From contig NC_089458.1 in assembly GCF_026210795.1 (NCBI RefSeq), positions 1,814,001 to 1,878,000 of the forward strand: DNA of 64,000 bases. Direction: 5' to 3'. The translations under genes were made by a program, and so were the position numbers. Numbering within the stretch: position 1 is the first letter of the stretch; each line of letters begins with the position of its first letter. Shown here piece after piece: positions 1,137 to 33,822 of the stretch. The stretch comes from Rhizophagus irregularis. Its lineage: Eukaryota; Glomeromycota; Glomeromycetes; Glomerales; Glomeraceae. Below the pieces are notes generated by a model. That model was not told the origin of the DNA, did not search any database, and saw only the letters and a list, made by a program, of their open reading frames with translations.

Positions 1137-2709
1137 TAAGGATGGTGCCGCAAATATGTAATTGCGGAATAATTGCGATTTACGGTATTGCGGAACATTG
1201 CGGATTTTTAAATCTAAAAATCTGCAAATCCGCAAATCCGCAATTATCCGCAATCCCGCAAATATTCCGCAAATCTGCAAATATCGCAAAGTACCTCAAA
1301 TATTCCGCAATTGAATTGCGGTACTTTGAGGATTTGCAGAATATTTGCGGATTTGCGGAATGTCCGCAAAAAAAACTTTCTTTTTTTTAATAAAATATAA
1401 TTACTACTAAAAAAAAAAATATTTCTATTTATTATTAATAATAAAAGAAATTATTTTACATAAAAAAAAATTAAAAAAAACGCTGGAACCTATAGTTCCG
1501 GCGTTTTTACATAAAAAAAAATTAAATAAAACCGCCAGAACTTATAGTTCCAGCGTTTTAATTAAAAAAAGTTTAAAGAAAATGCCGGAACCTATAGTTC
1601 TGGCGTTTTTATTAAAAAAAATTTAAAGAAAACGCTGGAACCCATAGTTCCAGCGTTTTTACATAATAAAATTAAAAGAAAACGCTGGAACCTTAGTTCC
1701 AGCATTTTTATTAAAAAAAATTAAAAGAAAACGCCGGAACCTATAGTTTCGGCGTTTTTATTAAAAAAAATTAAAAGAAAAACGCCGGGAAGCTTGGATT
1801 CCGGCGTTTTTATTAAAAAAACTAAAAAGAAAACGCCGGAACCTTAGTTCTGGCGTTTTTATTAAAAAAAACTAAAAGAAAACGCCGGAACCTTAGTTCC
1901 GGCGTTTTTACATAAAAAAATTAAAAGAAAATGCCGCAACCTATAGTTCCGGCGTTTTTTATGTAAAAAAATTAAAAGCAAAAAACGCCGGAACCTATAG
2001 TTCCAGCGTTTTTACATAAAAAAATTCAAAAGAAAACGTCGGAACCCATAGTTCCGGCATTTTTACATAAAAAAAATTAAAAGAAAACGCCGGAACCCAT
2101 AGTTCTGGCGTTTTTATATAAATAAATTAAAAGAAAATGCCGGAACCTATAGTTCCGGCGTTTTTATATAAAATAATTAAAAGAAAATGCCGGAACCTTA
2201 GTTCCGGCGTTTTTATTAAAAAAAAATTTAAAGAAAACGCCGGAACCTTAGTTCCGGCGTTTTTACATAAATTAAAAAAATTAAAGAAAACGCCGGAACC
2301 TATAGTTCTGGCGTTTTTACATAAAAAAAATCAAAGAAAACGCCGGAACCTATAGTTCCGGCGTTTTTCATAAAAAAATCAAAGAAAACGCCGGAACCCA
2401 TAGTTCCGGCGTTTATATAAATAAATTAAAGAGAAAACGCTGGAACCTATAGTTCCGGCGTTTTTATATAAAATAATTAAAAGAAAACGCCGGAACCCAT
2501 AGTTCTGGCGTTTTTATTAAAAAAAATTAAAAAATATGCCGGAAGCAATAGTTCCAGCATTTTTGTATAAAAAACCTATTAGTTCTGGTGTTTTTTGTAT
2601 GTAAGAAAACACCAAAACTGAATTGCAGAATTACAGGCTACTAACCGCAATTCAACTTCAAAATCCGCAATATTGCGGAATTTGAAAATCATTTGCGGAC
2701 CCATCCTTA
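1137..2709. mobile_element. hAT-like non-autonomous element with ~22 CGCCGGAACC hairpins
   Basis: The termini are inverted repeats starting TAAGGATGG and followed by a cluster of CCGCAAT/ATTGCGG motifs (1,150-1,370 and 2,645-2,700). The 8-bp duplication ATTATCAA flanks it exactly (1129-1136 and 2710-2717). Between about 1,480 and 2,585 lie roughly 22 copies of a ~50-bp unit whose core is the palindrome CGCCGGAACC-TATA-GGTTCCGGCG, flanked by A- and T-tracts. No transposase is present. An 8-bp duplication is the hallmark of the hAT superfamily; the assignment is inference. Short open frames inside it are repeat artefacts. Confidence 0.85.
1480..2585. repeat. Tandem hairpin array, ~50-bp unit, ~22 copies
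   Basis: Each unit is A-rich DNA plus a 10-12 bp GC-rich stem (AACGCCGGAACC and its complement) with a loop of about 2-6 bases, often TATA. Several units carry changes on one arm only (for example TGG for CGG), while others keep both arms paired. The GC content contrasts sharply with the AT-rich surroundings. Confidence 0.9.
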
Positions 2710-2864
2710 ATTATCAATCAGACTTTGAACTTAAAAATTAAACAGTATTAACAAAAATTCTTGCGAATTTTTAATAATTGTGATTTTACATCAGTGAGTT
2801 TTTGGGTAGTATATATTAGTGGATACTAGTATTGTTTGATGCTTTAAAGTGTAGAAAAACTTAC

Positions 2865-4959
2865 GTCAAATAAATAAAAACTGGCAAAAAAATCAGATAG
2901 CCAATTTTTGGCTATATTTGTCCGATTTGTAACTTTTTGTAGCTGATTTTTAGTACGAATTGACAAAAATTGGATATGCCAATTTTTAAATTGCATATTC
3001 AAATCGGATTGCTGATTTTAGCTATATTTGTCTGATTTGTGACTTTTTACAGCCGTATTACCAATTCTTAACTACATTTTTCAGTTTTTTCACTATACAA
3101 AAAAATTGTATATACTGTACATTATGAAATATATATTTTTATAAAAAATTATATTGTAATATTGAATTAAATTTTAAAAAATATTTTATTAAGCAATATT
3201 AAATAAAAAACTAATCTTAAATAATTAAATTTTAAACAAAATACATTTAAGAATATAAATTTACTTGTAATTCAATGTAATATGCACAATTATAAAAATT
3301 AATAATTCCACAAATATTAACTGTACCTTCATTAAAATAAATATTCAAGTAGATTCTAAGCTGCTAAACAATTTTCAATTAATAAATGAAGTCGATTTGC
3401 TTTGGCTAAAGTGCTCAAAATACGCTCTGAAGTGACAAAATGGAAAAAAATAAAATTCGTGAATGAGTACCGTTGTGAAAATCGTGAATAACTCATCAAG
3501 TATTAACTGTACCTTCGTGAAAATTAATACTCAAGTAGATTTTGACATGCTGAACAATATTCAATTAATAAATGAAGTCGATTTACATTGGCTAAAGTGC
3601 TCAAAATACGCTCTGAATTGACAAAATGGAAAAAATAAAATTCGTGAATGAGTACCGTTGTGAAAATCGTGAATAACTCATCAAGTATTAACTGTACCTT
3701 CGTAAAAATTAATATCCAAGTAGATTTTGACATGCTGAACAACTTTCAATTAATATAAGAAGTCGATTTACTTTGGCTAAAGTGCTCAAAATACGCTCTG
3801 AAGTGACAAAATAGAAAAAATAAAATTCGTGAATGAGTACCGTTGTGAAAATCGTGAATAACTCATCAAGTATTAACTGTACCTTCGTAAAAATTAATAT
3901 CCAAGTAGATTTTGACATGATGAACAACTTTTAATTAATATAAGAAGTCGATTTACTTTGGCTAAAGTGCTCAAAATACGCTCTGAAGTGACAAAACGGA
4001 AAAAAATAAAATTCGTGAATGAGTACCGTTGTGAAAATCGTGAATAACTCATCAAGTATTAACTGTACCTTCGTGAAAATTAATATTCAAGTAGATTTTG
4101 ACATGCTGAACAACATTCTATTAATATAAAAAGTTAGTTTACTTTGGATAAAGTGCTCAAAATACGCTCTGAAGTGACAAAACGGAAAAAAATAAAATTC
4201 GTGAATGAGTACCGTTGTGAAAATCGTGAATAACTCATCAAGTATTAACTGTACCTTCGTGAAAATTAATATTCAAGTAGATTTTGACATGCTAAACAAC
4301 TTACAATTAATATAAGAAGTTGATTTACTTTGGCTAAAGATCTCAAAATACGTTCTGAAGGTAAAAAAATTTGTAACTTAATACTACTGTATTATATAAA
4401 AAATGTAAATAATTCCAAAAATATTAACTGTACTTTTATGAAGATTAATATCTTAACAGTTTTAAACTTACTGAACTACTTTTAATTAAAAGAATAAGAT
4501 TTACTTTAACCAAAATGCTCAAACAATACTTTGAAATATGTGTAAAAAAAATATAATATTTGTTTATATTTTAAATTATGAGTTATTTAATTTAAATGTG
4601 TTTATATTTAAGAAAAAAAATATTTTAATTCTATTTTATAAAGTATTTAAAAAGTATTTTAGTAAAGTTTTTGAGGCAAAAAAATAATTATAACTGAAAT
4701 AAAAAAAAAAATCTAAGTTAATAAATAAATATTAAACCGTAATACATAATCACATGTTATATATTAAAATTAGAAATTTTATATTAAAATCGAAAAATCC
4801 TACTACAAATAGCCAAAAATCGGCAATTTCATGTTAAAAATCAGAAATATTATATTAAAATCAAAAATATTTATTAAAATCGGAAATATTATATTAAAAT
4901 TGCCAAAAAATCAGATAGCCATATTAAAAAGGGAAAAATCTGATTTTTATTTATTTGAC
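2865..4959. mobile_element. Inverted-repeat element carrying a 185-bp tandem array
   Basis: The ends share the inverted repeat GTCAAATAAATAAAAA (2865-2880 and the complement ending at 4959). Next to each end is a cluster of AAATCGG / GCCAATTTTTGGC / ATCAGATAGCC motifs (2,882-3,060 and 4,780-4,945). The core is the 185-bp array listed separately. I could not find a clean target duplication, so the exact ends are tentative. Confidence 0.6.
3315..4500. repeat. Tandem array of ~185-186 bp units, ~6.5 copies
   Basis: The landmark TATTAACTGTACCTTC recurs at 3315, 3501, 3686, 3871, 4057, 4243 and, degenerate, 4422. Spacing is 185-186 bp until the last unit. Units share GTGAATGAGTACCGTTGTG and AAATACGCTCTGAAGTGAC and are nearly identical in the middle of the array, with decay at both edges. 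The small open frames on the minus strand repeat with the unit and are not genes. Confidence 0.92.
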
Positions 4960-4963
4960 CTGT

Positions 4964-5285
4964 GTATATCTGTAGAAAATACGTTATAAACGTATGAATT
5001 TTAATATACTGTAGAATAATACGTATACCGTATCCTTCATTTACAATATTTTTGTGAACCGTATACAAAATACTGATATACAGTAGAAATGGTATACGTT
5101 ATAGACGTATGAATTTAATATACCGTATCATACAGTATGTTTACCGTATACTTTATTGTATTTTTTACTAAACACATTTTGCAAACAGTATACATTATAC
5201 TGATATGCCGTATGTAAAAATGCGAACTGTATCAAAAATACGTATATACAGTGTAAAAACCGTATACATATTTTTTATAGGGTTA
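4964..5285. repeat. CGTATAC-motif cluster
   Basis: About 15 copies of CGTATAC, GTATACGT or close variants occur in both orientations within 320 bp, with no tandem period. A related TGTATATACTGTAC lies at about 3,100, so this could be one end of an element that holds the 185-bp array, or a separate small element. Confidence 0.5.
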
Positions 5286-5289
5286 CCAT

Positions 5290-6355
5290 TCTTTTACTTT
5301 TTTTAAAGACTAAAAAAATGATATATTAAGTCACAGAAATATATAATTTAAATTTTATTTTTATCATTAAAGTTGTTAAATTGTTGTATAATTAATACTT
5401 TTATTTAAACAGTTTATTTCTTTTAACTTAATTCAATATATTTACAAAATAAACAACTAATAATATTTATTATACAAGAACTAATATGTATTATTAACAA
5501 AATTATTATAATTATAAAAAAAATTAAAATTATGTACAAAAAATTGAATTACAAAAAAAATTAAAATTGAATTATGAAATTAAAAGAAAAAAAATGAATT
5601 ATGATTTACGATCATTTTTTTTTTCAATTCTTAAAACACATATATATTAAATTAAATTTGAATTAAAAAAAAGTTACATATTCTCATCTAAAATACCTAA
5701 GTAATCACATATCATAATTAAAAGTTGTAGATAGCTAATTTCATTTAACTATCATGTATAATAACATGTGAATTTAAATTATTTGAAAAGTAAAAGATAA
5801 ATAATAAATAAAATTACTCTCCATTATTCTAAAGGATCTATCTTAGGTAATATAAGCACTTTGCAGTAAAAAAGAACAAAACTACTAAAAAAAATAAAAA
5901 ATGAGTTAATATAAAATCATCTGAACAAATTATAGCATTTAGAATATTTTTAGCATATAAAAGAAAATTTGAATTTTTTCAGTAGTTTCATTTTTTTTTA
6001 CTGCAAAGCATCTATATTACAGGTTTATAAAGATAATCTTCAAGTTCATCAATATTCACAGTATTATTTTCATAATCAAATAATCCAAGTAAAAAAATTA
6101 TTTTCACTTATATTGGTGGTGAAGTTAGTATTAATATTAGTTTGTAAATTAGAAATATTTTGATATTTTTCTTTATTTTTTTATAATAATTCAATTTACG
6201 CTGTGAATCGAAAACTAATTGTTAATAAGATTTAAAGACTTGATTAATAAATAAATTTAAAATATTGTAAAAATAAAAATACCAATTTGTCACAATATAA
6301 TACAACTTTGACTTATCTGTTTTAGAATAATAAGATGATAGCTTATTCTAATAGC
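5290..6355. other. AT-rich intergenic stretch, nothing recognised
   Basis: Low-complexity AT-rich DNA. I find no convincing coding frame, RNA gene or terminal repeat. Confidence 0.6.
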
Positions 6356-6363
6356 TAATCCAA

Positions 6364-6540
6364 TATACATGCCACCCAAATTATTTTGGACTGCCGTAAT
6401 TATAAGTAAAATCCCAAATTCAATTATGACATCCCAAATTATTTTGGCACTTTACATAGTAAATTATATATAAACTGAATGAATTATGACATCCCAAATT
6501 ATAATTATGGCATCCTAAAATAATTTGGGCAGCATGTATA
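6364..6540. mobile_element. 177-bp hAT-like MITE, CCCAAATTATTTTGG motif
   Basis: The ends are inverted repeats starting TATACATGC and running into CCCAAATTATTTT. The exact 8-bp duplication TAATCCAA flanks it (6356-6363 and 6541-6548). The CCCAAATT motif occurs about five times in both orientations and fills most of the element. No coding sequence. Confidence 0.85.
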
Positions 6541-6649
6541 TAATCCAATCTCTTCAATATAACAATACTTGGTACTTTTTTCATCAATTAATTTTTCAAG
6601 ATAATCAAATAAAACATTGTAAATTGAAATAGATGATGATAATGTAATG

Positions 6650-6883
6650 CAGTGTTGTAACTGGGACTAGGACATGTCCTTGGATAGGATAGGACGAAAT
6701 AGTCCAGGATTTGAACAAGATGTTGTTGATGTCCAGGACAAAAATTCATTATAAGAAAATATATGATTTATATATAATATTAATAAATTGGACAATATTT
6801 TAGACGGGCTAGGACGGGACAAATGAAATTGGACTTGGACAGGACATCAAAATTTTGTGGGACACTGTCCTGCTACATCACTG
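6650..6883. mobile_element. 234-bp hAT-like MITE, AGGACA motif
   Basis: The ends begin CAGTG, a common hAT terminus, and continue TTGTAAC / ATGTAGC. The exact 8-bp duplication ATGTAATG flanks it (6642-6649 and 6884-6891). The interior repeats GGACA, AGGAC and GTCC about fifteen times in both orientations, with no fixed period. No coding sequence. Confidence 0.88.
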
Positions 6884-6891
6884 ATGTAATG

Positions 6892-7900
6892 TATTATGAA
6901 AATGACATGAATTCCATTACTTTGTAAAATTTCTAAAAATTATAATAAATATATGACATATATTATTTTGTAATAAAAAATTAAATAAAATATATAAACA
7001 AACTACCTCTATTATATAACAGAGTTCTTTAATTATATCCTATTCTTCAGATGTAATTATAAAACTGTTAAAATCATGTTGAAGAATTATAAAATCATCA
7101 AATAAAAGCCTATATAAAATATAATAATTAAAAAAAAATATTAAAACTTAAAATAATTTAACCATATTTATATATAATTACATAAATTTTAATAATTACC
7201 TTTCATAATACTAGTATATGTTTTAGCATCAAGTGGGTGGAATTCCATCAGATTTTTATGTCTAGTATTATTTATATGATGCAAATAAACTATATTCAAC
7301 AATCACGTGATGATGTTTCAATTTTCTGGTACAAATTTTCATATCATTGTCCAATAAAAAATGAGAATTTTTATATTACACTATTTCGTACATAATATTT
7401 TATGTCAAGATGAAAATTTTATTTATTGAAACTCTTCAACTTGTTGTTATCATTTTATTTTATGTGACATCAGTAAAGCCAGATCAAAATTTTCTCATTC
7501 ACGTATGATGATTTTCTCATGAATCAGAAGGTTTTCTCATTGTTAAAGGAATTTTCTCATGATCAAATGAATGTAATAATTTGGGCCAGCATTGAAATAT
7601 CATAATTTCAGCCTGAATTATAAAAATTTTTGATCAATAAGATAGAGCATATGTGATTTGATTTATTTCAAATTTAGGGCTGATCATATAAAAATCACTT
7701 AGTTTTAAATGCCTATAACTTTTTATATAGATTTTTTTTTCAAATATCTGACCGGTAATTTAATAGTACTTGTCTTGAAGAATAAAACTACCAGTTTATT
7801 TTCTTTAAAATTTATTTTTTAAATTTTTATAAGATTTTTTAGTACTACAATTTTATTGTTGAATATAGTTTACTTAAACCATAGTAAATTAAAAATATGT
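6892..7900. other. AT-rich intergenic stretch, nothing recognised
   Basis: No convincing coding sequence or terminal repeats. Weak coding-like composition on the minus strand begins beyond 7,900. Confidence 0.5.
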
Positions 7901-7989
7901 GTACCTAATTTATACTTTGTTTAAATTTTGTGATTTTAAGATCTTTTATGATCCTATTTATAGTTTATAGTACTTTTATAATAATGTAA

Positions 7990-8445
7990 TATATATACGT
8001 TAGGTTTAAAGATTTTATTTCAGAAAATATATTAAGATGTTGTGAAAATCATTCTCTTCTTTGTGGTGAAGAGTTTATTTTTATGATGAGTTTTCTTAAT
8101 TCTAGTATTATACTACTGTTTTCATCAAAATTATCCTTTAAAATCATAATTTTCTGATTTTTCTTAATTGCCTCTCTAGTCTTTACATATTTTAAAATTT
8201 TTATTAATTATATATGCGAGATATCACACATAATTTTTATAATGAAAAATCAATTTCATTTTGAGTACAAGTTCTTTCACAAATATTTTTTACAAACTAA
8301 TATATGAATAAAAAAATTCTAAATTAATTCATTTGCTACATTTGGTTCATCTATCACATGCTTTAAATTTTTTTTTTGTTTTATTATTATTATCCCTTTG
8401 TCTATAGGCCTTCACAGACATATTTGCCTGCGAAAATTCTGAATT
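7990..8445 (-). pseudogene. Decayed gene fragment, possibly a hAT transposase
   Basis: Reading down the minus strand, 8,440-8,310 gives MSVKAYRQRDNNNKTKKK followed by FKACDR, a stop and TKCSK, like a Cys-pair DNA-binding motif. About 8,185-8,030 gives ENSSIILELRKLIIK, INSSPQRRE, a stop and FSQHLNIFSE. Charged stretches of the form LRKLIKKI-SPQRREKF occur just before the DVRTRWNST region of hAT transposases; that part was not found here. Stops and frameshifts show it is dead. The hAT assignment is from memory of the family and is weak. Confidence 0.35.
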
Positions 8446-8949
8446 TTCAGTTTATATCATATAAAAATTTAATGTGTAATACAAAAACAAATTATATATT
8501 TTTGGATATCTTAAGTTCTGGACTTTATACCTATAACAATTTTTTCATCTAAATATGTATAAATAAAAGTTTTCTATATACTAAATTTATTTATTATTAA
8601 TAATATTATAAATTTAAGAAATTTCTCTTTAAACTTGTAAATTTCTCTTAAAGGGTGCAGTTCAAAAAAGCTTAAGCTGTTTCACTTATAAAAGTAAAAT
8701 AAAACTGATTAGTACTGTGATTTCAGCATTAGCCATCAGTCACATGACTTACTGATCTAACTATCGATCATTTTTTTTAAAAAAGTTTTATTAGGTTTAG
8801 CTATTATTGCAACAGTTTTCAACTTTAATATTTCAACAAAAAATTAATAAAAATATTTATTCTTTATCAAGAGTATGAAATTTTATAATTTTTGTTATAA
8901 TATAATGGAATATCGCATTTATAACACCAAAAATTTAATTGAGAAAAAT

Positions 8950-10625: not shown

Positions 10626-10639
10626 GTATTTTTGACAAT

Positions 10640-11095: not shown

Positions 11096-11096
11096 T

Positions 11097-11310: not shown

Positions 11311-11338
11311 CATGTTACAATACTGATAGAAATTACGT

Positions 11339-13352: not shown

Positions 13353-14400
13353 ATGGCTCTGACAGCTTGAAAAGAGCTCAAGCTAAGCTAGTAATAGACT
13401 TGATTCAAAAAGCTCAAGCCAGTAATAGGCTCAGCTCAAAAAGCTTGAGCTGGCTTAAGTTATCATATAAAAAATATTGCGAAAATGTTTTTTATATAAT
13501 GAATAAATCTAATTGTAACAGTCTGTTACACACCTTATTTGTAATAACCCCCAATTTTATCCAATTAAAATTTAAGATCAGGCATAATGTAAACAAAAAC
13601 AAAAGATTAGTCGTATAATTAAGACAAAAGAATTTTTTAAAAAATTTCAAGAAACTGCTTATAACTTGAAATTTTGTCTATAAAACTGTCTTAAATACAT
13701 TAAGTAAAAGTTTTTCAAATTAAATTTTGCATATAAAAATTTTATTTGTAAACCACATACTAAATTTATTATTAAAAAAAAATAAAAAAGAATGTTACAA
13801 ATAAAATATGTAACAGGCTGTTACAAATACATTTATTCTTATATAATATTATATTAAAAAAAATGTTTCACAACTTTTTTTTAATTCTTTAGTAAAAAAT
13901 ATTGCAAAAACGTTTTTTCACTATATTATATTAGAAAAAAACGTTTTACATCATTTTTTTTAATTCTTTAGTAAAAAAATGTTGTGAAAACATTTTTTTC
14001 ATTATATTATATTAGAAAAAAATATTTTGCAACATTTTTTTTAATTTTTTAGTAAAAAAATATTGCGAAAACATTTTTTTCACTATATTATATTAGAAAA
14101 AATGTTTCATAACATTTTTTTTAATTCTTTAATAAAAAACATTGCGAAAACATTTTTTTCCATAAAATTATATTAGAAAAAAATGTTTATTTCAGTGCTT
14201 TAATAAAAAATGTTGCAAAACATTTTTCTGAAGATAAAGCTTAAGTCTGGCTTGGCTTGAGCCATGATTTTCATGGTTCAGCTCAGCTCACTTCAGCTTA
14301 AGCCAAAATTTTTATAGCTCAGATTATTCTGACTCAGGCCAAAATTTGTTTTTTCAAGCTAAGCTGATCAAAACTATGGCTTAACTCAAGCTGGCTCATA
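13353..14400. mobile_element. AGCTCAAGC-motif element with hairpin array
   Basis: Clusters of AGCTCAAGC / GCTTGAGCT variants occupy 13,355-13,460 and, inverted, 14,230-14,400. The ends pair approximately (CAGCTTGA against TCAAGCTG). Between them lie AT-rich DNA with two GTTACA palindromes and, at 13,860-14,225, five or six hairpins made from AAAACGTTGCGAAAACG-like and TTTCGCAACATT-like arms. I found no clean target duplication, so the ends are approximate. Confidence 0.65.
13860..14225. repeat. AACGTTGCGAAA-type hairpin array in the AGCTCAAGC element
   Basis: Alternating arms TATTGCGAAAACATTTTTT and AAAAAACGTTTTACATCATT, with ~65-80 bp spacing, form successive imperfect hairpins. The core is the same as in the arrays at 15,620-15,870 and 25,780-27,235. 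Confidence 0.8.
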
Positions 14401-14504: not shown

Positions 14505-14783
14505 CACTGGTAAAAAAATGATTTATCCTACACATATCTTACACATATTGGGTACTCAAAATGTAGAAAATCATACACAAATAATACACATATCATACAC
14601 ATATCGGGTACTAATATATATATCATACATATATCAGGTACCTGATAGGTATACTATATATATAAGTACCCGATATGTGTATGATATGTGTATTATTTGT
14701 GTATGATTTTCTACATTTTGAGTACCTGATATATGTAAGATATGTGTAGGATATGTGTAGGATAGACCATTTTTTTACCAGTG
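14505..14783. mobile_element. 279-bp foldback element with ~120-bp arms
   Basis: Two nearly complete inverted arms start CACTGGTAAAAAAATG and meet near 14,650. They carry repeated CACATATC / GATATGTG and GGGTACT motifs. The whole element can fold into one long hairpin with a short loop. TACTA occurs just outside both ends and may be a target duplication. The 70-residue open frame in it is an artefact. Confidence 0.85.
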
Positions 14784-15079
14784 ATACTAAGATATATTAC
14801 CAGTAGAAATTTCATTTTCATATGAAACCTTACCTTAGGATTTGTTTAAATTTTATTGAAACAATGTAACATAAAATTTTCTTTTATAGTAGATTAGTAG
14901 GATCTTTAAAGAGTTTTATATGTAAACCTTACCTTAAGCCACAGGGTGACCTATAGAGCTCCGAACAGGTCAGCCAAATTCAGGTAACCTGACCTGACCT
15001 GACCTGAAATTCAGGTCAGGTATGAAGATTGACCTGACCTGATTGACCTGTTGACCTGAAACTATTGATTTTACTATAT

Positions 15080-15600
15080 AATAAAAGTGAGTTGCAGTAT
15101 TGCGATTCACTTTTTTATATTGATTTTATATAATAAAAGTGAGTTGCGATATTGCGATTCACTTTTTTATATTGATTTTATATAATAAAAGTGAGTTGCG
15201 GTATTGCAATTCACTTTTTTATATAGATTCTATATAAAAAAAGCGAGTTGCGGTATCGCGATTCACTTTTTTATATTGATTTTATATAATAAAAGTGAGT
15301 TGCGATATTGTGATTCATTTTTTATATTGATTTTATATAATAAAAGTGAGTTGCGATATTGCGATTCACTTTTTTATATTGATTTTATATAATAAAAGTG
15401 AGTTGCGATATTGCGATTCACTTTTTTACATTAATTTTATATAATAAAAGTGAGTTGCAATATTGCGATTCACTTTTTTATATTGATTTTATATAATAAA
15501 AGTGAGTTGCGATATTGCGATTCACTTTTATATATTAATTCTATATAAAAAAAGTGAATTGCAGTATTGGTATTCACTTTTTTATATGATTTTAATATAA
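15080..15600. repeat. Tandem hairpin array, ~52-bp unit, ~10 copies
   Basis: Each unit contains AAAGTGAGTTGCGATATTG followed by GCGATTCACTTTT, arms of a hairpin, and an ATTGATTTTATATAATA spacer. Spacing is about 52 bp. The copies are very similar. Confidence 0.9.
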
Positions 15601-15619
15601 AAATGTTGAATCGCAATAT

Positions 15620-15870
15620 TTCGAGAAAAAACGTTGCGAAAACGTTTTTTTCATAATATTATATTAAAAAAATGTTTCATAACATTTTTATTTTGATATT
15701 TCAATAATAACGTTGCGAAAACATTTTTTTCGTAATGTTATATTAAAAAAAACGTTTTGCAATATTTTTTTTCAATATTTTAATAAAAAACGTTGCAAAA
15801 ACGTTTTTTTTCATAATATTATATTGAAAAAAAAAGTTTTGTACTGTTTTTTTTCAATACTTTAATAAAA
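15620..15870. repeat. AACGTTGCGAAA-type hairpin array in the GACCTG element
   Basis: Three to four units with arms AAAAACGTTGCGAAAACG and ATGTTTCATAACATT, separated by ATAATATTATATT spacers. Confidence 0.8.
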
Positions 15871-16153
15871 ATAGTCCTGAAATTTTTCAGGTTTCAGGTC
15901 AGGTCAAACAGACAACCTGATATAACCTGACCTGACCTGACCTGAAAAAAAATTTCAGGTCAGGTTTATCAATTAACCTGACCTGACCTGACCCATTCGG
16001 AACTCTAGTAACCTATCTTAATAGTAGGCAGGATTTTAATAATATATTAGGTTATATTATATATGATAAAAACTTTTACATATGCCTAATTAATTTCATG
16101 ACTTTTTTATGAAGAGAACTTTGAACTTTCATGAAAATTAGTTATTCTTATTT

Positions 16154-22080: not shown

Positions 22081-22111
22081 CCATTATCTCATAAAGACAA
22101 AATAAAATATT

Positions 22112-22939
22112 ATGGCAAATGCGCAAGATCGATTTAATGAGAGATATGACGACGATAAGGATACATATGAAATTATTCTTGATCATAATCAAAATGGTAT
22201 ATTTAAAGGAGAATTAATTATCGAAAATTTTACCGAGTTGCAGTATGTGAAAGTAGCGGGAGAACCATCTTGTAGAGGAGGTTTAACTAAACTAATAGTT
22301 AGAAACTGTGAAGAATTGACTCGTTTAGATTGTAGTATTAACAGTATTGATAAGTTAATTGTTACTGATTGTTCGAAATTAGAGGAACTAGATGTATCTA
22401 GTCAATATCGTATGGTCAGTAATGATTTGGAAGTGAAAACTTTAAGTGAAATAAACATAGGAGAGATAGGTCACAAATTAAAAAAAATCAATGTCTCTGA
22501 CAATAAATTGAGAAATGCAGATCTTTTAGATCTTTTAGGCAGTGATAATCCAGATTTAATTGAGATCAAATGTTCAAGTAATAGTTCATTGAGCCATATA
22601 AATGTTAAAGGTTTTCGAAAACTTAAAAAGTTATACTGTGGTGGTAACCAGCTTTCCAAATTAGACCTTACGGAAAATTCAGAATTGGAAGAGCTGTATA
22701 TCGAGAACAATGGAATTTGTGAAGATGATTTAACCTTTTTATCACATTTAACGAAGATGAAAGTTCTCTCCTTAGGAAACATAAGGAGTACTAATTTATC
22801 ATTTTTCAACAATTTCGGTGGTTCCTTGGAACCTTTAAAAAGAATGCGAAGATTAGAGAGACTTATTATTATTGGCATCAATATTGATGATAGTGATCGA
22901 CATTTGTTGCCAAGGAATTTGAAAATTATTAAAGAATAA
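22112..22939 (+). CDS. Leucine-rich-repeat protein, MANAQ type
   Basis: Single-exon gene of 275 residues with an ATG start and a clean TAA stop; codon use and GC content are clearly above the flanks. After a short acidic N-terminus (MANAQDRFNERYDDD) come irregular leucine-rich repeats, best seen at residues 57-76, 78-96, 122-135, 148-165, 167-185 and 189-201, with the L-x-L/C-x-x-N pattern (LKKLYCGGNQLSKLDL, LEELYIENNGI). The last third (residues 215-275) is less regular. There is no signal peptide or membrane segment, so a cytosolic protein-binding role is likely. MANAQ-starting LRR proteins, some fused to kinases, form a large family in Rhizophagus; this one has no kinase. Partner unknown. 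It is the only intact gene in the repeat-rich half. Confidence 0.85.
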   Translation: MANAQDRFNERYDDDKDTYEIILDHNQNGIFKGELIIENFTELQYVKVAGEPSCRGGLTKLIVRNCEELTRLDCSINSIDKLIVTDCSKLEELDVSSQYRMVSNDLEVKTLSEINIGEIGHKLKKINVSDNKLRNADLLDLLGSDNPDLIEIKCSSNSSLSHINVKGFRKLKKLYCGGNQLSKLDLTENSELEELYIENNGICEDDLTFLSHLTKMKVLSLGNIRSTNLSFFNNFGGSLEPLKRMRRLERLIIIGINIDDSDRHLLPRNLKIIKE

Positions 22940-24235: not shown

Positions 24236-24239
24236 CATA

Positions 24240-24765: not shown

Positions 24766-24835
24766 CAATTCTTGGAATCTAATTTTTTTACACAAAAAAA
24801 TTTTGTTAAAGCAAATATAAATTAGAAAAAATGTA
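24763..24835. mobile_element. Solo terminus of family A element
   Basis: ATATGGGCCAATTCTTGGAA then TCTAATTTTTTTACACAAAA matches the inverted right end of the copy at 17,328-18,805 for about 70 bases, then stops. Confidence 0.7.
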
Positions 24836-24863
24836 CGTTATACCGGAGATACCAGTATCTTAT

Positions 24864-24999
24864 ACATGTAGCCGAAACTTCTATGAAGTTGGATAAGGTT
24901 TCAGACTTTCAGTAATTTAATTATAATAAATTATTAAAAACTATTCAGAAATCCATCTGAAACTCTAAAGACTTTATATTATAGTTTCGGCTGGATGTA
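24864..24999. mobile_element. Small GCCGAAACT-ended MITE
   Basis: ACATGTAGCCGAAACT on the left pairs with ACATCCAGCCGAAACT read from the right end. GTTTCAGA motifs recur inside. It is about 136 bp. Target duplication not resolved. Confidence 0.5.
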
Positions 25000-25500
25000 G
25001 AAATTAATTTTTATCATTTTTTAAACTTAATTTTAATTTAAAGATATGGCCAAAAATCACGTGAAAAGGTTTCAGACCCCAAAATATGTGATTAAACTTT
25101 TTGATTTATAATACATACAATAATCTCTTTTTATACTCGAACAAAACTTTTTTTATATAAAAACTATTTTTCTTTCTATTTAAAATGTGAATTTTTTAAC
25201 AAATATTTTTTCTTATTTAATAGATATTTCACTTAAACACAATTTCATGAACTTTTTCTGAACATGAAAATTTTACTTAAACACAATTTTATGAACTTTC
25301 CTGAACACAAAAATCAATTTCATGAACAACTTTTCCCAAATATAATAATTTAATAATTTTTATACATGGTGAGTGAGAGTTGCGTTTGCTATAGAATTGC
25401 TTAGGGTTAGGATTAGAGTTAGGTGCATTAGTTTATGTGATTATTTAGAATTAGGATTAGATATGTTTACTAGAGGATTGTTTACTAATTGTTTACGCTT
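25000..25500. other. AT-rich stretch with a short direct repeat
   Basis: Two or three copies of ACTTAAACACAATTT-CATGAAC occur at 25,230-25,335. No coding sequence seen. Confidence 0.5.
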
Positions 25501-25779
25501 ACTTTAATTTTTTTAGATATTTGAAAAGATTAATGATCTTGACTTTAAAAATCCATCAGTTGATATACCACTTGAAGATGAGATTAATTTATTTGAATAT
25601 AATGATTTTGTGAAGATGAAGTTGAAGATAGTCCTTTAAAAGAATTGTATAGTGGGTAAGGATGGTGCTGCAATTGATTGATCAAATCCGCAATATTGCG
25701 GATTTTGGAGTTGAATTACGGTTAGTGATCCGCAATTCCGCAATTCACTTGGCACTAGTTTACCAAACCGATTTAATAA

Positions 25780-27235
25780 AAAAAATGTTTACGCAACATT
25801 TTTTTAACCAATTTAAAGAAAAAATGTTGCGAAACATTTTTTCAAAGTGCTTTTAATTAAAAGAACGTTTGCTCAACGTTTTTTTAATTAATTTAAAGAA
25901 AAAATGTTGCAAAACGTTTTTTCAAAGTATATTTAATTAGAAAAAACGTTTCACAACGTTTTTTTAATTAATTTTTAATGAAAAACGTTTAATGAAAAAA
26001 CGTTTTTTCAAAAGATATTTAATTAAAAAAAATGTTTCGCAACATTTTTTTAATTAATTTAAAGAAAAAATGTTGCGAAATGTTTTTTCAAAGTATATTT
26101 AATTAGAAAAAATGTGTCACAACGTTTTTTTAATTAATTTAATGAAAAAATGTTGCAAAATGTTTTTTCAAAGTATTTTTAATTAAAAAAAACGTTTCGC
26201 AACATTTTTTTAATTGATTTAAAGAAAAAACGTTGCAAAACATTTTTTCAAAGTATTTTTAATTAAAAAAAACGTTTCACAACGTTTTTTAATTGATTTA
26301 ATGAAAAAATGTTGCGAAATATTTTTTCAAAGTATATTTAATTAAAAGGGTATTGCTAAATATCACCAGTGGTGATCATCATCACATGTAAAATATTTTT
26401 TGAATTTTCAAAAATTTTTGACTGTGACATTATTCTAATTATAATATAAATATCATTAGTATATGTAAATTTATGGGTAGAACAAGTTTGCCTTAAATTA
26501 TAAAGGCTATTGTTTAGATAGTTTTTGAGAAAAATAGGAAAGTTTGATTTTATAAGCAAAATACAATTTTTTGTTTTAAAAAAGATTTTTTTTAGTCAAA
26601 TTTTCAAAATTTTAGTGATTAGTATCTACTTAGGTTTGTTTTACGCATTTATTATTTAAATTGAAATTTTTGAAAAAAAAATTATGATGTATTTTTAATT
26701 CTGGCCAAAATTATAATTTTTGGCCAGAATTAAGTGGTGAGGTGACGATCACCACTGGTGATATTTAGCAATACCCTAATTAAAAAAAACGTTTCACAAC
26801 GTTTTTTTAATTAATTTAAAGAAAAAACATTGCGAAATGTTTTTTCAAAGTATATTTAATTAGAAAAAATGTTTCATAACGTTTTTTTAATTAATTTAAA
26901 GAAAAAATGTTGAGAAACGTTTTTTCAAGGATTTTTAATTAAAAAAAATGTTTTGCAACATTTTTTTAATTGATTTAAAGAAAAAATGGTGTGAAACGTT
27001 TTTTCAAAGTATATTTAATTAGAAAAAACGTTTCGTAACATTTTTTTAATTAATTTAAAGAAAAAACGTTGCGAAATATTTTTTTAATTAATTTAAAGAA
27101 AAAACGTTGCGAAACATTTTTTCAAAGTATTTTTAATTAAAAAAAATGTTTCACAACATTTTTTTAATTAATTTAAAGAAAAAACGTTGCGAAACATTTT
27201 TTCAAAGTATTTTTAATCAAAAAAAAATGTTTCAC
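25780..27235. repeat. AACGTTTCGCAAC hairpin array, ~80-bp unit
   Basis: About a dozen units read AAACGTTTCGCAACGTTTTT, then a TAATTAATTTAAAG spacer, AAAAAACGTTGCGAAACG, then TTTTTTCAAAGTATATTTAA. C/T and G/A differences at CG sites are very common between copies (CGTT against TGTT, CGAAA against CAAAA). Confidence 0.9.
26348..26776. mobile_element. 429-bp MULE-like MITE with perfect 30-bp terminal repeats
   Basis: The ends are GGGTATTGCTAAATATCACC and on for 30 identical bases at 26348-26377 and, inverted, 26747-26776. The 9-bp duplication TAATTAAAA flanks it (26339-26347 and 26777-26785), the size typical of Mutator-like elements. Because the host array is itself rich in TAATTAAAA, the duplication needs care. 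Perfect ends imply recent insertion. The interior is AT-rich and non-coding. Confidence 0.85.
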
Positions 27236-28030
27236 AATGTTTTTTTGGGATTGCTTTAATAATAAATATTGCGAAATTGCAAATAATTTGCAATTACGCA
27301 AATGTTTCACAATTTCGCAAATGTTCCGCAATTCTGCAATTATTCCGCAATTGAATTACAATACTTTGCAGAATTGCGGAATTGCAGAATATTTGCATAA
27401 TTGCAGATGCGTAATTGCGATTCGTTGAGATATTTAGGTTTAAAAATCTGCAATATTTCGCAATACCGTAAATCGCAATTATTCTGCAATTGCTTATTTG
27501 TAGCACTATCCTTAATAGTGGGCAAACTTTTGCTTCATTTGACATACTTGAGCAATGTTTAAAATGATATGCAATTCAAATGGGATTTAAAACAATAATC
27601 ATTCATATTGAAAAAAAAGATGATGTATATGCTCAAAATACTTACAAATGTTGTTATAGAAGTAAGTATGAACCTAAAAAAAGGCTTGATCCTACAGAAA
27701 ATTAAAAGCAAGAATTAGCTTGTATAAGATGAAGATGTAGTTTTTTGTTAAATGCTTCATATTAAATTAGTTTTTATTAACAAATTTGTTGAAGAACATA
27801 ACTATACGTTAAGAATTACTTCATCAATTTGCTCCATCTTTGTGTAAAATACCTGTTGATGTAAAAGAAGAGATTCTATATAAACATCTTATGAAATTAC
27901 AATAGGAGGATTCTGATTGGTATTTTAATGTTGATTTTGAGGGTATAAAGGTTGAAAAAGAAGAACAAGCGGCAATGTGGTATATGCAAATCTTGATATC
28001 ATGACTCCTAAAATTGTTCTTTAAAGAACA

Positions 28031-28630
28031 ATAAAGAAGGCAATGCGATCAAGAAAATTTAATGGTTGAATCGAACATATAATTAGTATAATCTAAAAAT
28101 TTATGTTTCATTATTTTTTCATTTGTTGCTTATCAATTTGCGTTTTTATTCTTAATTAATATTTATTTAAGAAGTTTGTAAATAAAAAGTGTTTTTAAAA
28201 AAAATTATTAAATCAGAATTTGAATATTTAAAAATCAGAGTTTAAATTTGAGGAAGGATACTAGTATTTCCCGATATAAAATATATAAAAATTTTCTATA
28301 AATTATTATTTATATAAGAATAATAATTAACAGTCATCACTGGATATAACAAACCTGCCATTCCAAGCGTTTTGGTTCAGTATATGGTGAATTTGATATA
28401 TGATATTCATATTATATACCAAACTGTTTGGTATATAAATTTTATCCAATTAAATTATAGCAGCATATACTGTAATATTTAAAGTTCAGATGATTACATG
28501 ACTTACTATAACAGATAACACTATGTTTTATTTAAAATTTATGTGTTCATCAATTTTTTAAGTATTTACCAACTATTCAAATGAAAATTTTATCTGATAC
28601 TAGCAGAAATAATTTTTTCGGTAGTCCATT
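28031..28630. other. AT-rich stretch, nothing recognised
   Basis: No supported coding sequence. A small ATATGGTGAA...TATACCAAAC imperfect palindrome lies at about 28,380-28,440. Confidence 0.5.
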
Positions 28631-28637
28631 CTTTTAT

Positions 28638-29491
28638 CTAGGGGTGTGGGGGGGTCCAACTGGTTGGTTACACAATATAATTTCGTATTACCAAACTGTC
28701 CCACTACCGTCACCCCTGAATTTTATTATTTTAATATATCGAAACAAGCATTCAAGCTAAACTTTTGAAAACTTTTGCTTATGAACGTTTTAAAAGCCGA
28801 TGTTCGAGAGTAGATTAGTGTTGGTAAGAGTCATATATTGGCAAATTTTCATGACTATTAGAGCGTTATTGGGTTTCTCAGGTCAAAGTTTTAATATAGC
28901 TTATTAGAAAAACTATTATTTCGAAATATGTATTAAAAAAATTTTTTTAAAAAACAATGAAAAATATGTTTTTAACAATAAATATCACTTTTATATTAAA
29001 ATTTTATTAAATACATTCTCTGTTATTAGTGAAAACTGCATACAACTATTTATTGTAGACATTTACTATAGACAATATTTTTTTCAGTTTTTTTTAAAAA
29101 AAAAGGTTTAAAAGTTATTATAAATTAAAAGTCTATATAAATAACGTTTTCTTGTAATAAATAAACTTGTTTTACTTGTTTTAGACTTCTAAATATTGAT
29201 TTATTCATCATAAATACTAAAATAAAACCGCCGATGTTGTTTTTTTCTTTAGAGAAGGTCCAAACATTATTTAAAGTACTTGGACGCGACAAAACAGATG
29301 TAAAGATGATCACGTTTCAAGGATGACATAATTGGGTGGCTGGTTTTTTTAATTGCAGGGGTATTTTGTTCACCGATCATCATAATTTACTAATAACGTA
29401 TATGAATTTATATGGAGGACAGTTTTGATTTATTAGACTTATTGTATATTATATTGTGTAACCAACCAGTTGGACCCCCCCACACCCCTAG
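28638..29491. mobile_element. 854-bp element with perfect 44-bp terminal repeats
   Basis: The left end CTAGGGGTGTGGGGGGGTCC and on for 44 bases is identical to the inverted right end. The 7-bp duplication CTTTTAT flanks it (28631-28637 and 29492-29498). The (C)TAGGGGTG start resembles hAT termini, whose usual duplication is 8 bp. The interior is AT-rich with no intact gene; the short minus-strand frame at 29,125-29,313 has no recognisable family. Perfect ends imply recent movement. Confidence 0.85.
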
Positions 29492-29498
29492 CTTTTAT

Positions 29499-29726
29499 AT
29501 TACTAATTAAAGTCACGTGATAGTTCAGTATACTAAATATGTAACTGATATATTTGGACTGGCTAAAATAAGTTTGGATGCAGTATATAGTAATTTATTA
29601 TGTGATTTCGTTATATCCAGTGCAATTAATTATAAAAAAATCAGTTCTGTGAAACTTGGTTCAATACAACAAGTTTTCGGTACAAATAGGTTCGTTATAA
29701 CCAGTAGCGACTGTATACTAGATAAA
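29499..29726. mobile_element. Pogo-like sequence interrupting a family A copy
   Basis: The right end GGTTCGTTATAACCAGTAGC followed by GACTGTA resembles pogo/Tc1-type termini. Another CAGTATA...TTCGTTATATCCAGT is at 29,581-29,620. It replaces the expected end of the family A element, so an insertion or recombination occurred here. Confidence 0.45.
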
Positions 29727-31677
29727 AGATCAAATATAACTTTCATGACAAAATCATTGATAATTCTTCATAGAAATACTAAGCTATATAAATAAATTTA
29801 TATTTACTTGAAAGAAAAGATCAAGATCTATCTAATGAATCTAAAATCAAATGAATTGAATTGCTAGTTGTTTAGTAATCACATTCAGTATATTTATTGA
29901 ATTTTATCTAAATTTGATCATTAATTACTTTACATGTAGTGATTCAATTTGAATGATCTTTACTTTCTAAGGTGATGCCAACTTTTATCTTTAAAATAAA
30001 TTTAAAATAATTCGTTTAATATATGTAGATATTCAGGAATCATCAATTATATTATTAATATAAAATTTTATAAGTTTGATAAAATCTGATATAAAAAAAA
30101 TTATTAAATACCTGTAGATGTAAGCTACATGAATGAAATTATATTCATTTGAAAGAGAAAATTGAAGTCTATCTAATAAATCTAAAATCAAATGAATTGA
30201 ATCACTGGATTGTGAATAATTACGTCTAATATATTTATTTTTGATTTTTAAATTTGATTTGACTTTTATTGTTAATTACGTCTCATCCAGTGGTCTAATT
30301 TTTCTGATCTTTAAATTTCTACAATAGAGCAAATTCTCAGCTTTCAAATGAATATAAAACGATGATGTTAGTATATCTCCAGAAATAATAATGCACAATT
30401 TTATTACCTGTATAAAATCCAATCTGAAAATTTTATTTTTTACCAAAAAATGCTTTCATAAGAGAATCCCAAATTCTTTTATTTTATATAAAAGATTTTA
30501 TTTGCCATTTAAGGATTTTAGTAAAATAAATCTAATAAAATAATTTTAAAAGATAAAAAACAAATATATAATTAGTTTTTTGAAAAAAAAAATATTTTAT
30601 TATTTATTTTACAACTATTTTACATCATAATTATTTATTATTTGCATGTATTTTTTATAAAGAAAAAACAATAAATTAAAGCTAAAAATTATGAAAAATA
30701 TGTCTTTTCTATGTATATAAAATATTAAGTTTTTTCTTTTATTTATTACTTAAAAATAACGGGATCCTCCTGAAATCCCGATAACCATAATCCCGATGTG
30801 ATAAAATCTTGACACTCCTATTTCCGACTAAGACAATATCCCGAATGATTAAAATACTGAAAGAAATATATCCTGAATAGTCCAAAATCTGGAATTCAAA
30901 ATTCCTAAAAGTTCAAGTTACTGATGAGTCAAAATCCCGACACAATAAAGAAAAGATCGTAGTGATTGCACAATTGTTAATAATTTGCATAATTTGCCAA
31001 GAAGTTATTATGTCAATTACTACTGCGTGATCTCACTATATATTATATTGTAACATGTAAGTCATAAATCAAAATTGCAATTTTTTATCATTTAAATTGA
31101 AAATAGTGCATATGTATTGTATATATGATTGTATTAATTGTCGCAAAATATAATCAGTAGGATCTTCCTAGTAAACAAAAATCAAAGAGATACTCAAAAT
31201 TATAATATTGTGTCAGGATTTTGACTCATCAGTAACTTGAATTTTCAGGAAATTTAAATTCTGGATTTTAGACCATTCGGGATATGATACTTTCAGGATT
31301 TTGATCGTTCAGTATATTGTCTTTATTTGGAATACGTGCCTTGGGATTTTATCATATCAGGATTGTGCTTGTCGGAATTTCACGGTAAACCCAAAAATAA
31401 CTGCTATATATGCTTATAAACTTTTCTGTCATATTTAATAAAAATGAATAAAAAAATGATGGAAAAGTGATAGGCAGTGATGGGAAAAAAAGAAGTGTTT
31501 ATTACTGTTATTTTTGAATATTGATTAAAAAAATTTTTTTATTTTTTATTAAATTTGAGTTATATAAATATGTAACACATATTTAATTTAGATTTGTGTA
31601 ATATTAATTTTACTAAAATATTAAATTTTTATAAAAATCTTAATTTAGACTAATTCTAAAAATCAGCATATATAGTA
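29727..31677 (+). mobile_element. Family A element copy containing a nested 632-bp insertion
   Basis: This is the inverted relative of 17,328-18,600. It ends near 31,677 with AATTCTAAAAATCAGCATAT, the counterpart of the CATATGTGCCGATTTTTGGA end. It is truncated on the left at about 29,727 and split by the element at 30,761-31,392. No coding sequence. Confidence 0.8.
30761..31392. mobile_element. 632-bp MULE-like MITE with ~190-bp terminal repeats
   Basis: The left arm begins GGGATCCTCCTGAAATCCCG and the inverted right arm GGGTTTACCGTGAAATTCCG; they stay similar for about 190 bp. The exact 9-bp duplication AAAAATAAC flanks it (30752-30760, 31393-31401). The family A copy at 17,328-18,805 has a single AAAAATAAC (inverted, 17601-17609) at the matching place, an empty site that proves insertion. 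ATCCCGA/TCGGGAT motifs are clustered in both arms. Non-coding. Confidence 0.92.
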
Positions 31678-31757
31678 TTTTATATTTTATATAAATACAG
31701 TATAACTATTTCATAATTTAATTTCTTTTAATAAGTAATAAATACTTAAACTTACTA

Positions 31758-33235
31758 CAGTCACCCCTCTCTACAGCGAACCTCGATATAGCGAATAACA
31801 CGATATAACGGATCATACAGTGTGGTACCGATTTTAAATATGAAAAAAACCTTGATATAACGAAGTTTACTATTTATTTACCGTATAATGTAGTACGAAG
31901 TAAAGTGTGTGAATTTCTTATATAAAAATGCCTCTCGATATAACGGATTTTTTTTATAACGAATTTTTTTTCAGTTATAATGAAGAATTTCTTTATAATT
32001 AAATGTAATTATTAATAAATATTGATGCATTATGACATTAAATATCACCCCTGTGTTTTATATTTAAATTATGGATCAGGATTGTATCAGGATCGTATCA
32101 GGATTAATAATTCTGGCTATTTTATTTAATATTTAGGCAGAATTACATTAATTTACATTAATTCGGTTGTATTAGGATTCGATGTGAATTGTTATTAATT
32201 TATATTTATCACAGGGGTAAGGACACTCCTAGTTAAATTAATATATCATTAATAATTTATTTATTATATAGTCAGTTATTGTTAAACAGTATTCCTACAA
32301 AAAAAAGGAATTATAATAAACATTTTTATATAGAACACTTCAGGAAGCATTCCCTATAATAAAAAAATAAAAAAAGAACATTAGTAAATGTTCTTAAACG
32401 AAATTAAAAGAAAAAATTGAGTTGTCCCACTTACTTCTTATCTCAAGCGTTCATTTTGAAGTCCCTACAATAAAAAAAATAAAAAAGAACATTAGTAAAT
32501 GTTCTTAAACGAAATTAAAAGAAAAAATTGAGTTGTCCCACTTACTTCTTGTCCCAAGCATCCATTTCGAAGTCCCTACAATAAAAAAAATAAAAAAGAA
32601 CATTAGTAAATGTTCTTAAACGAAATTAATAAAAAAAATCGAGTTCCCCACTTACTTCTTGTCTCAAGCGTCCATTTCGAAGTCCCTACAATAAAAAAAA
32701 TAAAAAAGAACATTAGTAAATGTTCTTAAACGAAATTAATAAAAAAAATCGAGTTTCCCACTTACTTCTTGTCTCAAGCGTCCATTTCAAAGTCCAGGAA
32801 GTTCCCTATAATAAAAAAATAAAAAAAGAACATTAGTAAATGTTCTTAAATAAAAAAAATTGAGTTCCCCACTTACTTCTCGTCTCAGGCGTCCATTTCG
32901 AAGTCCAGGAAGTTCCCTACAATAAAAAAAATAAAAAAAGAACATTAGTAAATGTTCTTAAACGAAATTAATATAAAAAACCCCCAGTTCCCACTTACTT
33001 CTCATTCTAGGCATCTATTTTGAAGTTTAGAAAGCACCCCTATAAAAAAAAGATTAAAAAAAATGTTAAATTATCGGTAATCAGATCAACAAGTCACATG
33101 ATCTGTATAACTGATATTCCTATACCGAAGAATTCGTTATACAATACCGAATAATTCATTATAGTGTTAACGAAGTTGCTTATAACGAAGCCCTGATCAG
33201 CTGGAACCTAGGGTTCGTTATATCGAGAGGGACTG
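31758..33235. mobile_element. 1.48-kb pogo-like element with tandem array
   Basis: The ends are CAGTCACCCCTCTCTACAGC and, inverted, CAGTCCCTCTCGATATAACG; both run into GAACC, and TA flanks each end (31756-31757, 33236-33237). CGATATAACG / CGTTATA motifs cluster near both ends (31,795-31,985 and 33,125-33,230). The middle holds six ~111-120 bp repeats (32,340-33,020). TA target and CAGT ends fit the pogo/Tc1-mariner superfamily. No transposase. Confidence 0.85.
32340..33020. repeat. Tandem array of six ~111-120 bp units
   Basis: The palindrome GAACATTAGTAAATGTTC recurs at 32376, 32487, 32598, 32708, 32828 and 32940. Each unit also holds CCCACTTACTTCTTGTC, CATTTCGAAGTC and CCCTACAATAAAAAAA. 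Confidence 0.92.
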
Positions 33236-33418
33236 TATATGAACTTTACTTAAAAATATATTAATATATTAGAATTTTTGCTAATTCTTTAATTATAAAT
33301 GTTACTAATATGATTTATTGTATTATAAATTTTTTAATAATAACAATAATGACTTAAAAAAAAAAAAAGTTTAAGTAAATCTATACTACTAAAAAACTAA
33401 AATAATATTTCAAAAATA

Positions 33419-33822
33419 CTTTACAGAAATTGCAAGATCGTAGCGATGGCTTAATGCGCAGTAACTGCATATATGTAATTTCTTTACGATTACATAATGT
33501 GATCACTATGTATTTATAACTAAGGTTGCTTGCCGAAACCTAGGGGTTTAGGTAAGATGGCGTTTCGCCGAAAAGCGAAATTCTGCTGAAACTATATTAA
33601 AGTTATATTAAAAAACTGGCGAAACTTTGGAGAAAGGTGAAACTGCCAAAACTTATTATAAATGCCGAAACTGCCGAAACTCTGCCGAAACTATAATAAA
33701 TCTATAGTAAAATTTTGACGAAACTAATCGTAGGATTTTGAGGAGGTTTAGACAAGCAACCTTATTTATAACGCAGTTACTACGTATTAAGTCATCGCTA
33801 CAATCTTGCAGTTTCTGTAAAG
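33419..33822. mobile_element. TA-flanked MITE containing a hAT-like MITE
   Basis: The arms CTTTACAGAAATTGCAAGAT and, inverted, CTTTACAGAAACTGCAAGAT continue for about 50 bases with a handful of differences. TA flanks both ends (33417-33418, 33823-33824). The centre is split by the 244-bp element at 33,521-33,764. Confidence 0.8.
33521..33764. mobile_element. 244-bp hAT-like MITE, GCCGAAACT motif
   Basis: The ends TAAGGTTGCTTG pair, and the exact 8-bp duplication TTTATAAC flanks it (33513-33520, 33765-33772). GCCGAAACT, GCGAAACT and related motifs recur about ten times. No coding sequence. Confidence 0.88.

Follow-up and report, generated by a model that had tools for sequence, protein, structure and literature searches.

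Family-specific ends around unrelated, often tandem-hairpin interiors in probable non-autonomous hAT elements of Rhizophagus irregularis

Tandem-repeat-containing miniature inverted-repeat transposable elements of bivalves carry central tandem arrays within small elements, and transposons of the hAT superfamily have terminal repeats of a YARNG-type consensus. The maize hAT elements Ds2 and Ds-l4 are described as having shared ends around unrelated or variable filler, with subterminal AAACGG repeats in Ds-l4 (PMC3260210), and in Herves, another hAT element, a short subterminal motif near both ends is reported to be bound by the transposase (PMC3143072). A 64-kb window of the Rhizophagus irregularis genome (the whole stretch of DNA analysed, C30:1814001-1878000, in an assembly of 146.7 Mb and 32 contigs) contains elements that are probably non-autonomous hAT transposons, in which each family has its own ends with a private motif and the interiors are unrelated, often tandem hairpin arrays. 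Two-thirds of the transposable elements of this species have been called unclassified (PMC11075540).

The elements resemble Ds2 and Ds-l4 in their 8-bp duplications, shared ends or terminal repeats, and unrelated filler; in maize, the filler is reported to be varied DNA, at times gene fragments, whereas the filler here often consists of hairpin units in tandem and, unlike in maize, one array recurs between the ends of different families (PMC3260210). The combination of flanking modules with central tandem arrays, some of them related in either module, recalls the Cg_HINE elements of the Pacific oyster, although these are non-autonomous Helentrons and the elements described here have terminal repeats and 8-bp duplications (PMC7492417). 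As in coral CMITEs, conservation between families is stronger in the interior than in the terminal repeats; CMITEs are piggyBac-related, and the passages of PMC2872659 that deal with these points do not present their interior as a hairpin array. The short motif near both ends, here a putative binding site, parallels that of Herves (PMC3143072). Since hAT ends with unrelated filler (PMC3260210) and modular ends with central arrays (PMC7492417) are already published, the suggestion of an earlier sequence-only reading of this DNA, that the elements form an undescribed class of transposon, is not supported; new here are hairpin arrays as hAT filler, shared across families. A limited literature search found no publication on such arrays in R. 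irregularis hAT elements, nor on mini-exon arrays in transposons.

Family ends, private motifs and interiors

The following elements of the window are concerned (arrays of E1, E4 and E5 as delimited by Tandem Repeats Finder, TRF):
E1, 1137..2709, no strand assigned: TAAGG-family element, probably of hAT type; interior A50 hairpin array at 1464-2574, about 22 units.
E5, 25657..27514, no strand assigned: TAAGG family; interior A80 hairpin array at 25772-26347 and 26777-27246.
E4, 14954..16007, no strand assigned: TAGAG family; motif GGTCAGG/GACCTG; two arrays, A52 at 15075-15600 and A80-type at 15614-15871.
TAAAG-family element start, 63683..64000, plus strand: a further element of the same plan, running off the window end.
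E3, 13353..14400, no strand assigned: motif AGCTCAAGC; A80-type array at 13846-14188; ends less clear.
E2, 2865..4959, no strand assigned: 16-bp terminal repeat GTCAAATAAATAAAAA; motif AATCGG/AATCAG; 186-bp array at 3311-4360, not palindromic.
E6, 31758..33235, minus strand: CAGTC...GACTG ends, TA duplication; 111-bp array at 32351-33002.

E1 and E5 share the terminus TAAGGAT and are each flanked by an identical 8-bp duplication (ATTATCAA and ATAGTGGG, respectively), and the flanks of E4 (GTGACCTA/GTAACCTA) form an 8-bp duplication with one mismatch. The sequence-only reading had ascribed one plan to at least six elements; E1, E4 and E5 are clean transposons, E6 is TA-duplicating, and E2 and E3, at neither of which a target duplication was found when looked for, fit it less well.

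The ends recur across the genome. Specifically, TAAGGATGGTGCNGCAA occurs at 91 places with at most 1 mismatch (1 in the reversed control), TAGAGYTCCGAAYRGGTCAG at 677 places with at most 2 mismatches (0 in the control), and TAAAGCTCTAAWYGG at 87 places exactly (4 in the control); the third family, TAAAG, came to light because it carries the A80 array. Among the loci fetched from the assembly (numbered with the prefix L), 32 end pairs have 8-bp flanks that differ at no more than 2 positions, the limit for inclusion, and in 27 of these pairs the flanks are identical; five further pairs (L017, L028, L031, L042, L044) are without such flanks. L044 was set aside, as it matched the end pattern but had neither motif nor array.

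The association of one private motif with each terminus, as first proposed from the sequence, is borne out by a table of 33 elements (the 32 pairs and L042; 11 TAAGG, 4 TAGAG and 18 TAAAG), in which motif copies were counted within 250 bp of each terminus and Markov expectations were computed for 20 elements. CCGCAA is present in 6-21 copies in all 11 TAAGG elements and in at most one in the other 22, and GGTCAGG in 7-15 copies in the four TAGAG elements and in at most one elsewhere. GGTCCGG has 1-9 copies in 14 of 17 TAAAG elements and none elsewhere; its exact form is absent from L021, L022 and L029, so that the full table weakens the TAAAG motif, and the TAAAG-like L006 has 12 copies of CGGTTC (0-2 elsewhere). 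Each family's motif is therefore concentrated at its own ends, cleanly so for TAAGG and TAGAG. Within the window, slightly trimmed motifs exceed the expectation of a first-order Markov model in all six elements: CCGCAA in E1 (19, 1.40 expected) and E5 (7, 0.66), GACCTG in E4 (17, 0.05), AGCTCAAGC in E3 (3, 0.01), ATATAACG in E6 (4, 0.13) and AATCGG in E2 (4, 0.27), with few copies in E2, E3 and E6. The copies near each end point both ways, so the supposed inversion of the clusters between the two ends was not confirmed.

Between TAAGG ends lie at least four unrelated interiors. A50 occupies eight (E1, L002, L006, L041 twice, the right part of L042, L048 and L049), A80 five (E5, L010, L011, L012, L027), mini-exon-type arrays three (L003, L043, L014) and a hAT gene one (L042); L004, L008, L009 and L045 have another array or no long one, TRF detecting no long array in 1.5 kb at the TAAGG ends of L004 and L009. 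The sample is not random, as A80 loci were sought by array and the others by end pairs; the first eight TAAGG end hits in contig order (L002-L009) comprise three A50, one A80, one mini-exon and three other or no arrays. Right ends with the same interior align over 369-420 of 420 bp, and those with different interiors over 62-100 bp in most comparisons, about 90 bp being shared; left ends with different interiors align mostly over about 100-240 bp. Family ends around unrelated interiors, as in Ds2 and Ds-l4, are thus found here as well.

The modules that are alike across unrelated interiors (about 90 bp on the right and about 135 bp on the left) make these elements a natural test bed for the part of a hAT end that is needed, for the gain of filler by non-autonomous elements and for the seeding of tandem arrays. 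Moreover, TAGAG and TAAAG ends have the outer bases TARAGCTC in common and diverge from there inward; as the inner motif changes (GGTCAGG, GGTCCGG, CGGTTC) behind this shared sequence, transposase specificity could be mapped by comparison.

Coding relatives and the hAT assignment

The starts of the TAAGG, TAGAG and TAAAG families fit the short YARNG type, and all three families have 8-bp target site duplications. CACTA elements have CACTA ends and a 3-bp duplication, and Helentrons have rolling-circle ends and no 8-bp duplication. The CACTA features were not found in the window elements and tabulated families, nor were those of Helentrons of the Cg_HINE kind, 8-bp duplications and terminal repeats being present.

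In L042, TAAGG left and right end modules (at 723 and 7664), homologous to the other TAAGG ends and carrying the CCGCAA motif, enclose a minus-strand gene with DUF659 (1.1e-23) and Dimer_Tnp_hAT (5.6e-8) domains, with palindromic GGACAATTTTGTCC arrays on both sides of it. A genome search with a 206-codon piece containing its dimer domain gave 15 matches at an identity of at least 90%, one of them L042 itself; ten have an outward-pointing TAAGG end, mostly of a CCGTAA variant, within 10 kb on the 3' side, at 3221-3284 bp in seven cases, where the density of listed TAAGG ends predicts about 0.006 per gene copy by chance. The predicted product of a TAAGG element is hence a hAT transposase, so that coding relatives with the same ends, which the sequence-only reading proposed to look for, are supported for this family. 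Evidence is weaker for a putative hAT transposase in a TAGAG element: L046 has TAGAG ends with identical 8-bp flanks (GTCCTCAC) and shows collinear partial matches to two frames of a small local set, one containing a BED finger and a weak DUF659 (match at E 1.5e-20) and the other Dimer_Tnp_hAT (4.7e-15).

L047, with TAGAG ends and a Mutator-like element (MULE) between A80 and A52 arrays, was considered as an autonomous parent with ancestral arrays. Its MULE (877-4074, 3198 bp), which encodes a 757-aa FAR1/MULE transposase in one open frame, is nested in an E4-like element, with its own 9-bp duplication TTTTTAATA and with E4 as the intact empty site. Owing to this nesting, the parent role was dropped, as was a sharing of A80 between hAT and MULE elements, and no MULE transposase belonging to a TAGAG element was found that would make this family Mutator-like.

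E1, E4 and E5 are accordingly likely to be clean non-autonomous members of the hAT superfamily, in two families, a judgement made jointly with the explanation as a whole; the TAAAG element at 63683 is probably one too, and E3 possibly. A hAT transposase would act in trans on the ends and read the subterminal motif, repair of a broken or excised copy with a different template may occasionally replace the interior, and the arrays would then expand or shrink by slippage or unequal exchange and be inherited together with their ends. By analogy with another hAT element, as reported in PMC3143072, it is plausible that the motif serves as a transposase-recognition code, as the sequence-only reading had it.

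Several observations weigh against this explanation. Among right ends, L014-L043 (180-198 bp) and L014-L027 (173-180 bp) share more than a short end module; on the left, E1, L048 and one L041 element resemble L043 and L003 over about 340-406 bp, and A50 left ends fall into two variants, some pairs of which align over only 135-136 bp. The interiors of the TAGAG elements L013, E4 and L047 contain 1-3 copies of CCGCAA. The ends of L042 have no matching 8-bp flanks, no TAAGG end is listed within 10 kb of 5 of the 15 dimer-piece matches, the Pfam hits of L046 itself to Dimer_Tnp_hAT and zf-BED are under the curated cut-offs, and no coding TAAAG element is among the loci fetched. Moreover, one TAAGG end on C25 is followed 1.6 kb inward by a MULE gene, and the replacement of interiors by repair is a step that we only infer.

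Shared arrays and competing explanations

At least three different sets of ends enclose the A80 array. At 29 of 32 A80 loci (E5 plus 31 drawn from the listed ones among 398 genome matches), at least one family end is near the array (24 TAAAG, 5 TAAGG), and more diverged units are present in the TAGAG elements E4, L013 and L047 and in E3. Homology between families ends at the array edges: E5 matches E3, TAGAG and TAAAG elements by blastn from 115-120 to 1620-1622 of its 1858 positions, that is, over its array, and L010, of its own family, over 1-1858. In the reverse comparisons, matches go no more than about 45 bases beyond the array (its A80 part in E4 and L013), except that those of E3 also reach a lone unit near the left end. 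A comparison of single units (hits covering fewer than 66 query bases dropped; 259 of the remaining 502 kept after removing overlaps) shows that, neighbours at the same locus disregarded, 39 of 45 TAAGG, 185 of 199 TAAAG and 2 of 5 TAGAG units are closest to a unit of their own family, and mean distances are 0.147 and 0.166 within families and 0.193 between TAAGG and TAAAG. Because units mostly cluster by family, array exchange between families looks rare or old, although the sharing is real. As a separate observation, the A80 array of the TAAGG element in L011 is interrupted by a TAAAG element (1063-1681) with the duplication GTTGCGAA.

The array of E6 is of another kind. Elements of the Tc1/mariner-pogo type have a TA duplication and CAGT ends, and E6, with its TA duplication and CAGTC ends, corresponds to this type in these two features. 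On its minus strand, six units consist of a T-rich acceptor ending in TAG, a stretch of 30-41 nt and the donor GTAAGT (0.33 expected); the plus strand has no such unit. E6 thus stands apart as a TA-duplicating element, and its array looks like a series of mini-exon/intron units, with the reservation that such units, being copied in tandem, do not count as independent evidence of splicing. An ACTAAT stretch lies inside the intron hairpin of this array (32351-33002, minus strand). The same kind of unit is found in L081 (six), L080 (two), L003 (four) and L043 (six on one strand and seven on the other, with some overlap), with expectations of 0.5, 0.7 and 1.0 for L003 and the two strands of L043; L046 has three (1.1 expected), E2 one (0.3 expected) and L014 one, and none are found in E1, E4, E5 and L006. 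Aligned to the E6 unit, those of L043 and L003 score 82 and 85 (maxima of 46 and 44 in 300 shuffles), and those of L014 and L046 weakly, 47 against 41 and 40 against 34. L043 (674-5023) is itself a TAAGG element of 4.35 kb, in which several mini-exon-like arrays, different from one another, occupy both strands.

Of 35 array loci among the matches listed, 33 have a 196-bp E6 end module no more than 1.2 kb away, at 242-249 bp in 24 of those 33, and 7 of 40 listed end modules are without a listed array. Given the E6-type ends at these 33 loci, the E6 array belongs to one family. The end module corrected a provisional result, based on a strict end pattern with 8 places, that the array mostly lacks E6 ends; a looser pattern gave noise (102 hits, 97 in the reversed control). 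L082 combines an E6-type end (one mismatch) with a 206-aa open frame that has no Pfam hit at 0.05.

Whether interiors are modules that pass between unrelated families, A80 between hAT families and a mini-exon/intron cassette between E6 and the TAAGG elements L043 and L003, with splicing of the cassette possibly of importance, is a tentative proposal and rather doubtful. Units related to that of E6 do occur in those two elements, and of the exchangeable centre proposed in the sequence-only reading, the variety of interiors between the same ends stands; free exchange is not supported, as A80 units mostly cluster by family and the E6 array keeps to its ends at 33 of 35 listed loci.

It appears unlikely that A80 was present in one hAT ancestor of all families and was kept without exchange while the ends diverged. 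The preference of most units for their own family (not so for TAGAG) and the 8-bp duplications of all three families would fit such a descent, but most TAAGG elements of the non-random sample hold other interiors, no blastn match between families extends outside the array although TAAGG and TAAAG units differ by only 0.193 on average, and the hairpin arms do not show the covariation that would suggest constraint. An independent uptake of A80 by each family from one genomic satellite is similarly unlikely: three of the 32 A80 loci (L033, L036, L038) have no recognised end when ends are sought at up to 4 mismatches, but the other 29, drawn from the listed matches, are near at least one.

Folding and variation of the hairpins bear on a further, improbable explanation, in which the hairpins are functional, for instance as two-way transcription terminators, insulators or transposition enhancers. 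Single units were folded and compared with dinucleotide shuffles, as a count of best stems did not tell hairpins from chance in such AT-rich sequence and was replaced by folding z-scores. Units of A50 (E1), A80 (E5), E3 and E0 (an array beside E1, see below; z -5.4) fold better than shuffles (z -4.1 to -6.2), as does the array unit of L042 (z -4.35); two A52 units of E4 give z -1.8 and -6.9, and an A80 unit from the TAAAG element L026 -2.7. The palindromic centre attributed to all six elements thus applies to A50, A80 and E3 and unevenly to A52; it was not confirmed for E2, where 142 bases of the 186-bp unit gave z +0.39 and the unit is not palindromic, or for E6, whose unit has only a 9-10 bp stem within 111 bp (z -2.4). 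One unit of L043 folds no better than shuffles (z +1.2). The non-homologous A50, A52, A80 and GGACAATTTTGTCC arrays share short palindromes beside A and T tracts, and such arrays flank the hAT gene of L042 on both sides, as functional hairpins might. Covariation as a sign of selection was however not borne out, for A80 arms vary independently (444 hairpins, L012 and L001-L009 left out; 144 paired, 141.7 expected, permutation p 0.43) and A50 arms covary at only one of three variable positions (p 0.002, 0.67 and 0.41, permuted within element). Furthermore, changes in 174 A50 hairpins (arms with up to 3 changes; L007, which overlaps L048, left out) concentrate at CpG positions, with 17-30% at three of the four per arm, 3% at the fourth and about 2-7% elsewhere, which agrees with CpG decay. 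In R. irregularis, transposable elements are reported to carry CG methylation, and signs of repeat-induced point mutation are reported as not detected in another arbuscular mycorrhizal fungus (PMC8647823). Most likely, the arrays are filler without a sequence-specific role.

An undescribed transposon class defined by a self-expanding array, to which the plan common to several families could point, is very improbable, as the ends, duplications and coding partners indicate hAT elements, the hAT coding element with the same ends already disfavouring it, and arrays are not always present (L004, L009).

Other features of the window

Two further features adjoin or interrupt the elements above:
Nested element, 26348..26776, no strand assigned: 429 bp, inside the array of E5, splitting A80; perfect 22-bp terminal inverted repeat (GGGTATTGC...) and 9-bp duplication TAATTAAAA.
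E0, 829..1094, no strand assigned: 91-bp palindromic array (TRF) directly outside E1.

E0-type palindromic units precede E1 (829-1094) and a similar stretch follows it at 2741-2780, so that the insertion of E1 may have taken place within a different array element or next to one. Between E3 and E4 lies a long palindromic element built of TACACATATC repeats (14509-14779), and an element at 33420-33821 has a terminal repeat of about 29 bp (TTTACAGAAAYTGCAAGATYGTAGCGATG), CCGAAAC motifs in its centre and 10-bp flanks that differ. Lastly, open frames with recognisable domains are present at 22106-22939 (leucine-rich repeat), 47728-49560 (Gti1/Pac2), 54247-55017 (ubiquitin-conjugating) and 60135-62093 (GATA zinc finger).

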